Origin: Vulcanimicrobiota bacterium
Lineage (GTDB): Bacteria > Vulcanimicrobiota > Vulcanimicrobiia > Vulcanimicrobiales > Vulcanimicrobiaceae
DNA: 39,530 nucleotides
Direction: 5' to 3'
Assembly (NCBI GenBank): GCA_027459845.1
Contig: DAIDGS010000004.1
Span: forward strand, 1 to 39,530
In this document: in pieces, positions 30,862 through 33,954 of the stretch
How the letters are laid out: each line of letters opens with the position of its first letter
Numbering within the stretch: position 1 is the stretch's first letter
Notes under the pieces: generated by a model
The model's input: only the letters and a program-made list of their open reading frames with translations
Database searches by the model: none
What the model was told of the DNA's origin: nothing
Position numbers and translations under genes: made by a program

Positions 30862-30903
30862 TATAGCGGCTTCTGTGCCGGCGGCGTGGAAAAGCGCCGG
30901 GCG

Positions 30904-31386
30904 ATGGACGAAGACCAGCGGTATCTGCGCCGGGCGATCGAGCTGGCCGCGCGCGCGGCCGAGGCCGGCGACGTGCCGATCGGCGCGGTGCTGCTGGTCG
31001 GCGATCGTCACTTCGAGGCGTGGAACGAAAAGGAGCGTCGTCCCGATCCGACCGCCCATGCCGAAGTGCTGCTGATTCGCGAGGCCGCGGCTGCGCTCGG
31101 CCGGTGGCGGCTCTCGGACGCCACCCTTTACGTCACCAAGGAGCCCTGCGTCATGTGCGCCGGTGCAATCGTGGCCGCGCGCATTGGGCGCGTGGTCTAC
31201 GGCGCGCCCGATCCGAAGGGCGGCGCCGACGTCAGCGTCTTCGACGTCTTGCGGTCGCCCAAAACCAACCATCGGCTGGAGGTTACCTCGGGCGTCTGCG
31301 CGACCGAAGCCGCCGAGCAACTGCAACGCTTCTTTCGCGAGCGTCGCGGCAAAGGCGAAGAAGGTTTGCCCGATTCGCCGCCGTAG
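30904..31386 (+). CDS. tadA: tRNA-specific adenosine deaminase
   Basis: The 160-residue protein carries the deaminase zinc motifs HAE (His52, Glu54) and PCVMC (Pro81, Cys82, Cys85), with TadA features VPIGAVLL, NEKERRPDPTAHAE and the KTNHRLEVTSGV stretch. It converts A34 to inosine in tRNA-Arg(ACG), which is encoded about 1.1 kb upstream. The start at ATG 30904 fits the family; a GTG at 30886 is the alternative. tRNA-Ser(CGA) follows 14 bases later. Confidence 0.95.
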   Translation: MDEDQRYLRRAIELAARAAEAGDVPIGAVLLVGDRHFEAWNEKERRPDPTAHAEVLLIREAAAALGRWRLSDATLYVTKEPCVMCAGAIVAARIGRVVYGAPDPKGGADVSVFDVLRSPKTNHRLEVTSGVCATEAAEQLQRFFRERRGKGEEGLPDSPP

Positions 31387-31400
31387 AGAGGCGGTCGCGC

Positions 31401-31491
31401 GGAGAGGTGGTCGAGTGGTTGAAGGCACCCGCCTCGAAAGCGGGCGAACGTGATGAGCGTTCCGTGAGTTCGAATCTCACCCTCTCCGCCA
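31401..31491 (+). tRNA. tRNA-Ser (CGA), with encoded CCA
   Basis: Acceptor GGAGAGG pairs with CCTCTCC, discriminator G and CCA (31489-31491). Stem CCCGC/GCGGG holds the loop CTCGAAA, anticodon CGA. A long variable arm (GAACGTGATGAGCGTTC) and T-arm GTGAGTTCGAATCTCAC complete a class II serine tRNA. Its 3' end starts a 141-bp tandem repeat. Confidence 0.96.
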
Positions 31492-31528
31492 GCATATTCT
31501 GCGTTCCGAACTCACGGAACGCTCATCA
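31451..31528. repeat. 22-bp inverted repeat between tRNA-Ser variable/T-arm and its trailer
   Basis: Positions 31507-31528 are the exact reverse complement of 31451-31472, which is the variable arm and 5' T-arm of tRNA-Ser(CGA). The arms are 34 bases apart. The second unit carries the same antisense copy at 31648-31669. Confidence 0.9.
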
Positions 31529-31604
31529 GCGCAGGCGCGCAGCGCCGTAGCGGTCTCTTCAAACGGGTGGGGTCCCCGCGCGCGAGCGCGTGGGGAATGG
31601 TTGC
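31464..31604 (+). repeat. 141-bp repeat unit 1, starting in the tRNA-Ser 3' end
   Basis: The unit begins with the T-arm and acceptor end of tRNA-Ser(CGA), including CCA, then runs through three hairpin-forming stretches: GCGTTCCG/CGGAACGC (31501-31522), GGCGC/GCGCC, and CCCCGCGC with GCGTGGGG. It differs from unit 2 by a single base (gtctcttc here, gtcttttc there). Confidence 0.9.
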
Positions 31605-31745
31605 GTGAGTTCGAATCTCACCCTCTCCGCCAGCATATTCTGCGTTCCGAACTCACGGAACGCTCATCAGCGCAGGCGCGCAGCGCCGTAGCGGTCTTTT
31701 CAAACGGGTGGGGTCCCCGCGCGCGAGCGCGTGGGGAATGGTTGC
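31605..31745 (+). repeat. 141-bp repeat unit 2
   Basis: A near-identical direct copy of unit 1, including a complete 28-base copy of the tRNA 3' end with CCA (31605-31632). No 5' tRNA half is attached, so it is not a tRNA gene. With unit 1 and the partial third copy it fills the 317-bp gap between tRNA-Ser and the hydrolase gene. Confidence 0.9.
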
Positions 31746-31768
31746 GTGAGTTCGAATCTCACCCTCTC
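31746..31768 (+). repeat. Partial third copy of the tRNA-derived repeat
   Basis: Twenty-three bases match the start of the unit (T-arm and part of the acceptor), then identity stops within the acceptor strand at CCCTCTC. It marks the right end of the tandem array. Confidence 0.85.
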
Positions 31769-31808: not shown

Positions 31809-32480
31809 ATGGCGTTATTCGTACTGATCCCCGGCGCCGGCGGCATGGCGTGGTATTGGCACCGCGTGACGCCCTTGCTGCACCAAGCCGGGCAACAAGC
31901 CCTCGCGGTCGATCTTCCCGGCGACGACCCGCACGCCGGCCTCGCGGCATACACGGACATCGTCGTACGTGCGATCGCCGGGCGGCGCGACGTCGTTCTC
32001 GTGGCACAGTCGCTGGCGGGCTTCACCGCTCCGCTTGTGTGCGCACGCACGTGCGTGAAGACCCTCGTGTTTGTCAACGCGATGATTCCCATGCCCGGCG
32101 AGACCGCCGGCGCGTGGTGGGACGCCACGGGAGCGATCGCGGCGAGGGAACAGGCCGCACTGCGGCGCGGCTACGCCACGTCGTTCGATATGACGACGTA
32201 CTTTTTGCACGATGTGCCGCCGGACGTGCTGCACGCCGGTCCCGAGGGACCGCGCGAGGAAGCCGCGATCGTTTTTGGCGAGCCCTGCCGCTTCAAGCGC
32301 TGGCCGGAGCTCCCCATTCACGTTCTGGCGGGAAGCGACGACCGCTTCTTCCCGATCGAATTTCAGCGACGCGTTGCGCGTGAACGACTCGGGAAGGACG
32401 TGGACGCGATTGCCGGCGGCCACCTCCTTGCATTGTCCAATCCCGAAGGTTTGGTAAAGCGTCTTCTGGCGTGCGAATGA
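31809..32480 (+). CDS. Alpha/beta hydrolase
   Basis: The 223-residue protein has the small esterase-like alpha/beta-hydrolase layout: LIPGAGGMAWYWHRV (oxyanion), the nucleophile elbow VAQSLAGFT, an Asp in AGSDDRFFP and a His in AGGHLLALSNPE. The elbow has Ala in place of the usual first Gly. This resembles salicylate esterase/methylesterase-like proteins, but the substrate is unknown. The ATG at 31809 is preceded by a purine-rich GGAGAGAG. It lies directly after the tRNA-derived repeats. Confidence 0.85.
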   Translation: MALFVLIPGAGGMAWYWHRVTPLLHQAGQQALAVDLPGDDPHAGLAAYTDIVVRAIAGRRDVVLVAQSLAGFTAPLVCARTCVKTLVFVNAMIPMPGETAGAWWDATGAIAAREQAALRRGYATSFDMTTYFLHDVPPDVLHAGPEGPREEAAIVFGEPCRFKRWPELPIHVLAGSDDRFFPIEFQRRVARERLGKDVDAIAGGHLLALSNPEGLVKRLLACE

Positions 32481-32567
32481 AGCCCGTCGTGCAAGGAGTC
32501 ATAGGGTTATGGCGTCGACCGGGTACACGCCATCGCCGTTCGTCGCCCAGCAGCACGTCGCTTATCT

Positions 32568-32609
32568 CGAACTCACGGAACGCTCGTCGGCGCGCACCGC
32601 CGTAGCGGT
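32568..32609. repeat. Diverged dispersed copy of the tRNA-derived repeat segment
   Basis: CGAACTCACGGAACGCTC begins a 42-bp match to the antisense part of the 141-bp unit, with two substitutions in the 22-nt core and a short deletion before GCCGTAGCGGT. It ends 2 bases from the stop codon of the Nramp-related gene and may lie in its 3' untranslated region. The rest of the 130-bp gap (32481-32610) holds nothing else I recognise. Confidence 0.75.
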
Positions 32610-32610
32610 T

Positions 32611-33954
32611 TTAGAAGAGCGAAACGAAATAGGCGATCGTGGCGGCGACCACGATCGCGGCAACCGACCATCCGGCCAGTGCCAAGCCGGTGCCGATGCG
32701 GTGGCGTCCCATCACGCGTTTCGAGCGCGCGACCAGCAGCATCACCGCGAGCGAAACCGGCGTTCCGATACCCCCGATGATCGACGACGCATAGAGCACC
32801 CCTATCGGCGATGCGCCGAGCAGCCCGACCAGCGCCGCCGCGAACGTCATGACGACCATCGAGCCGTAGAACGCGCGCCCGCGCCACCACTTGGTATCGA
32901 GGGTGGCATTCCAGCCCAGGGCATCGCTGAGCATGTAGGCGCTGGTCGCAATCAACACCGGAACCGCAATCAGCGCCGAGCCGAGGAGGCCGATGCCAAA
33001 GAGCAGTGCGGCATTGCGGCCGGCGAGCGGGGCCAGGGCCTGCGCGGCTTGATCCGCCGTTTCGACGTTTTGGTGGTGGAGCCCAAGCGTCGCGCCGGTG
33101 GCAACCACGATCGCCCAGAACGACGCGCCCGCGATGACCGTTCCAAGCGTCGCATCGGCTTGCACCAGCCCGAGCCGCTTGATCGGCGGCCGTTCCTTGG
33201 CAGTTTCGACGGTCTGCCACACGTACGCGTACGACGTGAGCGTGGTGCCGAGCAACGCGATCGCACCGCTGGCATAGGCCTTGGTGAGCTCGAAATGCGG
33301 CACGAAGGTCCCCACCAAGACGGCGTGCCAATCGGGGTGCGCCAGGATCGCCGAGATCGGATACGCCAAAAAGACCAGGGGAACGATCAACAGCCCGCGC
33401 TTGATTTTATCGTAGGATCCGAACACGAGCATGGCCAGCGACGCGATCGCGATCGGCAGGATCCACCAGCGGTAGTCGATCCCGGTCAATACCTGCAGCG
33501 CGGCGCCACCGCCTTCGAGGTCGGCGACGAGCGTCACGAAGGTGATGCTGACAACCGAGACGAGCAGCACGAACGCCACGGCGCGCCCGTGGAGCGTGCG
33601 CGCGTCGCGTTCCAGCCCGTGGCGCGTGATCGCTCCGACGCGCGATGCGATGATTTGCACGACCGCCAGCATCGGCACGATCAATACCACCAGCCAGCCG
33701 AGTCCAAAGACGGTCGTCGATCCGATGACCGCGAGCGTCGCTACCGTGGTCGGATCGTTGTCGCTCGCACCCGAGACGATTCCGGAGCCGACATACGCCA
33801 GCGGCGATGTCGGCTTGCGCGGCTTACGCGGTGGCCGCGTCGGTTCGGCCGTCACGGGCCATACGGCGGCGGTGCGCACGTCGCGCCGGGCCGCGGGGTC
33901 AGGCGCGTGAGGCTGCGCAGCATAGGCCGCCTTGATTGCCCGCCGAGCACGCAC
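32611..33954 (-). CDS. Nramp-related transporter
   Basis: The 447-residue protein has about eleven hydrophobic segments, and YVGSGIVSGASDNDPTTVATLAVIG at the first helix is the Nramp-family position. The usual DPGN metal motif is replaced by DNDPT. In the sixth-helix region (GTTLTSYAYVWQT) no MPH motif is seen. The changes place it among Nramp-related proteins rather than classical Mn/Fe importers, so the ion is uncertain. The N-terminal 45 residues are basic and cytoplasmic. The GTG start at 33954 is tentative. Confidence 0.8.
   Translation of the reverse strand: MRARRAIKAAYAAQPHAPDPAARRDVRTAAVWPVTAEPTRPPRKPRKPTSPLAYVGSGIVSGASDNDPTTVATLAVIGSTTVFGLGWLVVLIVPMLAVVQIIASRVGAITRHGLERDARTLHGRAVAFVLLVSVVSITFVTLVADLEGGGAALQVLTGIDYRWWILPIAIASLAMLVFGSYDKIKRGLLIVPLVFLAYPISAILAHPDWHAVLVGTFVPHFELTKAYASGAIALLGTTLTSYAYVWQTVETAKERPPIKRLGLVQADATLGTVIAGASFWAIVVATGATLGLHHQNVETADQAAQALAPLAGRNAALLFGIGLLGSALIAVPVLIATSAYMLSDALGWNATLDTKWWRGRAFYGSMVVMTFAAALVGLLGASPIGVLYASSIIGGIGTPVSLAVMLLVARSKRVMGRHRIGTGLALAGWSVAAIVVAATIAYFVSLF

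Follow-up and report, generated by a model that had tools for sequence, protein, structure and literature searches.

A tandem array behind tRNA-Ser(CGA) of a Vulcanimicrobiota bacterium as a variant of a lineage-restricted three-hairpin element with antisense to the host tRNA

Tandem units located directly behind a tRNA gene have been described in E. coli, where 178-bp units with GC-rich hairpins follow tRNA-Tyr at tyrT/tyrV and are the source of rttR (RtT RNA). RtT RNAs are described as products released from tRNA transcripts that modulate the stringent response (PMC4986893). Integrative elements and genomic islands at tRNA genes (Islander) are accompanied by a regenerated tRNA 3′ end and a displaced 3′ fragment (PMC4383910). 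The palindromic elements of Rickettsia and Wolbachia (RPE, WPE) are lineage-restricted repeats of 100–150 bp that can lie inside genes (PMC3767692). Template switching, in turn, creates, maintains and mends RNA hairpins (PMC8794818).

The stretch of DNA analysed in the present study, referred to as the window, comprises 39,530 nucleotides of contig DAIDGS010000004.1 from a Vulcanimicrobiota bacterium (GCA_027459845.1). The features of the array found behind its tRNA-Ser(CGA) gene are listed in Table 1.

Table 1. Features of the tRNA-Ser(CGA) array and its surroundings
Feature	Position	Strand	Remarks
tRNA-Ser(CGA)	31401..31491	+	ARAGORN and Rfam; 3′ part (~31459 onward) forms the first copy of the shared segment S
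Repeat unit 1, 141 bp	31459..31599	+	Order: tRNA 3′ part, spacer, antisense, core hairpin, right hairpin
Repeat unit 2, 141 bp	31600..31740	+	2 differences from unit 1
Third copy of tRNA 3′ part, partial	31741..31768	+	CCA end missing
Antisense A1, unit 1	31507..31528	+	Perfect reverse complement of tRNA positions 51-72 (31451-31472)
Antisense A2, unit 2	31648..31669	+	Perfect reverse complement of tRNA positions 51-72
Core hairpin, unit 1	31529..31553	+	GCGCAGGCGCGCAGCGCCGTAGCGG
Core hairpin, unit 2	31670..31694	+	
Right hairpin, unit 1	31573..31596	+	TCCCCGCGCGCGAGCGCGTGGGGA
Right hairpin, unit 2	31714..31737	+	
R1 element-model match, unit 1	31514..31597	+	E 2e-4
R1 element-model match, unit 2	31655..31738	+	E 1e-4
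Older fragment	32567..32612	+	Antisense (21/22 complementary to tRNA), core hairpin and T-run
Cytidine/deoxycytidylate deaminase-family gene (TadA-like)	30886..31386	+	Upstream of tRNA
Alpha/beta hydrolase gene	31809..32480	+	Downstream of array

Tandem Repeats Finder reported the repeat at 31459-31768 with a period of 141, 2.2 copies and 98% matches, and the two complete units are unlike only at 31462 (C/G) and 31557 (C/T), so that the near-identical repeat of exact 141-base period claimed in the first-pass annotation is borne out. The near-identity is also compatible with the recent duplication or gene conversion suggested there. The third, partial copy has three differences over 33 nt. The tRNA 3′ end is indeed repeated, as that annotation stated; its placing of the unit start at the T arm needs refinement, since the repeated part comprises the end of the variable arm, the T arm, the acceptor and the CCA (tRNA position ~59-63 onward). 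The antisense segment and the conserved hairpins of each unit had been missed. The older fragment, located beyond the hydrolase gene, is decayed and has neither the right hairpin nor a copy of the tRNA. The source assembly is of metagenome type, with 205 contigs, which leaves some room for an assembly artefact; the copies, however, differ at two bases, the array does not lie at a contig end, and other genomes, including some on large contigs, show the same architecture with other unit lengths, and an artefact is scarcely conceivable.

Searches of related genomes with the core of the window units, and then with a canonical copy, revealed a family of repeat elements. The canonical element is about 95 nt long and consists of a left hairpin (GGGGGCCCC..CGGGGGGC), a core hairpin, a short link and a right hairpin (GGGGTCCCC..GGGG). 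A covariance model, R1, was built from 19 copies, the window units not being among them. Both units match this model with E about 1e-4 and contain its core hairpin (GCGCAG-stem-CGNAGNG) and then its right hairpin (CCCC..GGGG), in this order. The canonical left hairpin is missing from the window units, and the antisense to the tRNA is found in its place. As judged by these matches, the window array is a variant, not a canonical copy, of the three-hairpin element.

The R1 model found about 145 elements at E<=1e-4, spread over 48 of 99 genomes from the family of the window, and 55 of the 99 genomes were positive at E<=1e-3. A single genome holds up to 12 copies. No R1 match was found in the 50 other genomes of the phylum searched. 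In the GTDB species collection, a strict pattern of the element was met only in records of Candidatus Eremiobacterota and in contigs of the MAG REEB354 (titled ‘bacterium’). The search of plasmid and viral collections found no match. The literature searched on rtT, palindromic elements and Eremiobacterota repeats, which included few subscription papers, contains no description of the family. The lineage-restricted structured repeat family is real, and its tRNA-matched antisense variant is unusual. In size and lineage restriction the element is comparable to RPE and WPE; for these, the passages of PMC3767692 consulted report no target 3′-end copies or gene-matched antisense.

An alignment of 104 copies demonstrated that 97.3% of paired cells are standard pairs and that double-sided changes occur in 22 of the 23 helix pairs. 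The helix covariation reached 0.459, compared with 0.126 in shuffled alignments and at most 0.084 in slid ones. The helices contain 105 G.U and 15 C.A combinations; this large excess of G.U suggests that what is maintained is the RNA of this strand and not a DNA hairpin. It is probable from this pattern that the element is maintained as RNA, and the tolerance of G.U pairs argues against template switching as the sole means of helix upkeep.

The search of relatives proposed with the first-pass annotation also showed how the elements are placed. For 18 of the 104 aligned copies, a tRNA is found no more than 20 nt away; 21 copies have one within 50 nt, and 18 of these 21 share its orientation (p = 0.0015). 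Other sites include the RNase P RNA (rnpB), the position after an M-box riboswitch, and positions behind fliG and nusG. At five loci (L146, L151, L152, L077 and L081) the element is located inside the RNase P RNA, apparently in the P12 region, and some genomes have two copies there. At L145 355-765 (G052:C67), an M-box magnesium riboswitch is directly followed by two tandem elements. The fliG-fliH junction has an element behind fliG in three genera, including the window's own genome (L147, L187, L159).

After the elements at tRNA-Gln, tRNA-Arg, tRNA-Val, fliG and nusG, the 3′ end of the upstream gene occurs a second time, scoring above the 99% null. In two genera, the displaced fliG end closes with RLV-stop, and the conserved start of the following gene, MGKIV, comes immediately after it. 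This identifies the displaced copy as the original fliG end and the upstream copy as the one that arrived with the element. The duplicated fliG 3′ end at the fliG-fliH junction of two genera has codon differences between its copies and reads into a small chimeric ORF. At L175 (G020:C126), a tandem array of the nusG 3′ end, spacer and element runs off the contig end.

The displaced ends bear on two other explanations of the array. Replication slippage at the strong hairpins behind the tRNA might produce a plain tandem duplication with no mobile element involved. The near-identity of the two units would agree with it, as would the repetition of the terminator in a tRNA-Gln array of one genome (G032) and of its own spacer in the nusG array. 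Slippage is nevertheless unlikely, with the hairpin part belonging to a family interspersed across unrelated sites and with the sequence past the displaced copy at tRNA-Val, tRNA-Arg and fliG being unlike the spacer past the first copy. The other explanation invokes insertion at the tRNA 3′ end by a tyrosine recombinase, with the 141-bp unit as a gene-less mini-integrative element or an att-site remnant. Integration at tRNA genes is recognised by a regenerated target together with a displaced fragment (PMC4383910), the window array has these two at its ends, and displaced copies adjoin the native downstream gene. Unlike the Islander elements, the unit contains no gene and is too small for an integrase, occurs in arrays, and carries the antisense and a conserved RNA structure. 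No integrase was found within or beside it, the same element is present in rnpB and elsewhere without target copies, and an att footprint would not be expected to have a conserved, covarying RNA structure, all of which makes this explanation improbable. The first-pass annotation had considered the array as a possible footprint of excised elements integrated at a tRNA 3′ end. The geometry does fit integration at gene 3′ ends; the excision part is not supported, since the unit belongs to an interspersed hairpin family, contains no integrase and appears to have been inserted and not left over. The best reading is that the array is the element itself.

The antisense segment is directed against the variable arm and the 5′ side of the T arm of tRNA-Ser. 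The score of A1 (22) exceeded that of all 3000 dinucleotide shuffles of the downstream stretch (maximum 14). Among 174 tRNA genes in the examined loci, self-antisense of at least 16 nt located no more than 250 nt downstream was detected at 13, namely 10 Ser and 3 Gln genes from several genera. The antisense starts at tRNA position 50-53 in all Ser cases and at position 15 in all Gln cases, and the displaced 3′ copies begin a few nucleotides further into the tRNA. Further tRNA-Gln cases were found in one genus, some having no core or displaced copy. At the ten Ser loci, the antisense matched its own tRNA at 203 of 230 positions, compared with a mean of 177 and a maximum of 201 in 1e5 reassignments, and the number of double-change cells was 22 against 8.0 +- 2.2 in shuffles; both tests ignore relatedness, and three of the ten loci come from one genus. 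Because the antisense in relatives changes in step with the tRNA, the array is, on the evidence of these alignments, more than a simple duplication.

The plan of the array resembles that of E. coli tyrT/tyrV, where each unit ends in the tRNA 3′ end (19 nt), which the window units also contain. In E. coli K-12 tyrV/rttR (L285 867-1045), the unit holds a 19/22 antisense of the T arm of tRNA-Tyr, and 2 of 3000 shuffles were as good; this antisense is weaker than the perfect 22-nt antisense of the window. A small protein (tpr) is annotated inside E. coli rttR, which is another difference from the window. E. coli rttR was rejected as a sequence relative of the element, the best R1 match at that locus having E 0.35, and Rfam RtT gave no match in the window up to E 5. 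A sub-threshold match to sX4 in a loose-threshold Rfam search corresponded to the tRNA-Ser part itself and was also rejected.

The same features could belong to a functional RNA array like E. coli rtT, in which the tRNA transcript would run through the units and the freed trailer RNAs, containing antisense and hairpins, would tune the folding, processing or amount of tRNA-Ser, the antisense being able to pair with the variable and T arms. The RNA-type covariation with its excess of G.U pairs, the common orientation with tRNAs, the plan in common with rttR and the fit of each antisense to its own tRNA all favour such a role. The predicted antisense-tRNA duplex has an energy of -42.8 kcal/mol, and several genomes have kept the antisense without a core or displaced copy. 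The array of processed small RNAs that the first-pass annotation offered as its alternative may likewise exist, given the RNA-type covariation of the helices. On the other hand, the antisense is absent behind most tRNA-Ser genes of the family and decayed in some genomes, a strong terminator-like hairpin parts it from the tRNA in some genera, and a simple scan found no promoter-like or terminator-like site at the array. Taken together, this makes a functional array rather doubtful.

In the predicted minimum-energy fold of the tRNA with one unit, the tRNA 5′ end pairs with the distal 3′ copy and the antisense pairs with the proximal copy. The former pairing would suit a functional array too, and in this fold the unit can be viewed as an insertion into a loop of the tRNA, comparable to the elements located inside the RNase P RNA. 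In several Ser cases, the outer arm of the right hairpin is the tRNA's own 5′ end, and the inner arm is altered to match it (CCTCTCC..GGAGAGG). Together with the antisense, this suggests that at both ends of the element the outer helix arm can be supplied by the host and the inner arm by the element.

We therefore return to the reading that we prefer, with a probability of roughly 0.55: the array consists of two units of a lineage-restricted, RNA-forming three-hairpin element of about 95 nt, inserted in the 3′ half of tRNA-Ser(CGA) and carrying an antisense that probably derives from template switching. A unit provided with a spare copy of the tRNA 3′ end (S) would enter the variable arm of the tRNA and push the old 3′ end downstream, the S segment brought by the unit restoring an intact tRNA. 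A second insertion, or recombination between copies of S, would then give the tandem array. The antisense would replace the usual left hairpin of the element, so that the left helix could be formed with the tRNA itself. It probably began as a template-switch (reverse-complement) copy and its match to the tRNA may have been preserved through additional template switching or because RNA pairing was selected for. In template-switch hairpins, reverse-complement copying likewise makes or maintains perfect stems (PMC8794818); here, by contrast, the copy belongs to an interspersed element and has a tRNA gene as its stem partner. We infer the insertion mechanism, transcription, template switching and any function from the sequences. 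The misfit of the left half of the window units to the canonical element counts against the preferred reading, as does the negative result of the helper-gene search described below. In one relative (G110), only the distal unit has decayed, the proximal one being intact. This would be expected if new units were added next to the tRNA or if repair maintained the proximal unit.

A helper gene for the element was not found among the Y1 transposase and reverse transcriptase genes of the family. REP/BIME elements are interspersed palindromic repeats of intergenic regions, mobilised by RAYT (Y1) transposases. The element of the window's family is longer than these and has three hairpins, and Y1 transposase is present in 4 of the 99 family genomes and absent from the remaining 95, including the window's, so a REP/RAYT helper was rejected. 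A remnant of a group II intron or retroelement was rejected as well: reverse transcriptase is present in 11 of the 99 genomes, not including the window's, and the Rfam search gave no intron match in the window.

More tentatively, with the odds against it, the family might represent mobile structured RNA elements of a new class. Such an element would insert into gene ends or into the loops of structural RNAs, tRNAs among them, and would spare the host gene by bringing a 3′ end to replace the displaced one; its left arm would become antisense to the tRNA that harbours it and evolve together with that tRNA. If this is true, the element would fit itself to its tRNA and pair with it specifically, and the process would have taken place independently at the E. 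coli tyrT repeats; by analogy, a general process may lie behind those puzzling repeats. Palindromic repeat elements, antisense RNA and integration at the 3′ ends of tRNAs are usually treated separately; all three come together in this array. An antisense that tracks its tRNA across several genera is either a working RNA that pairs with the tRNA or among the cleaner traces that template switching has naturally left beside an essential gene.

At L037 201-1354 (G009:C7), a second copy of the 3′ part of tRNA-Ser(TGA) is located ~1.07 kb away from the gene, and the insert between them contains a 275-aa ORF on the minus strand. At the tRNA-Gln genes of two genomes (L291 and L225, of G109 and G107, respectively), the displaced 3′ copy of the tRNA is interrupted by a TCCTTCGACAGGCTCAGGATGACA repeat; in G109, the element has been lost and part of the displaced copy is kept.
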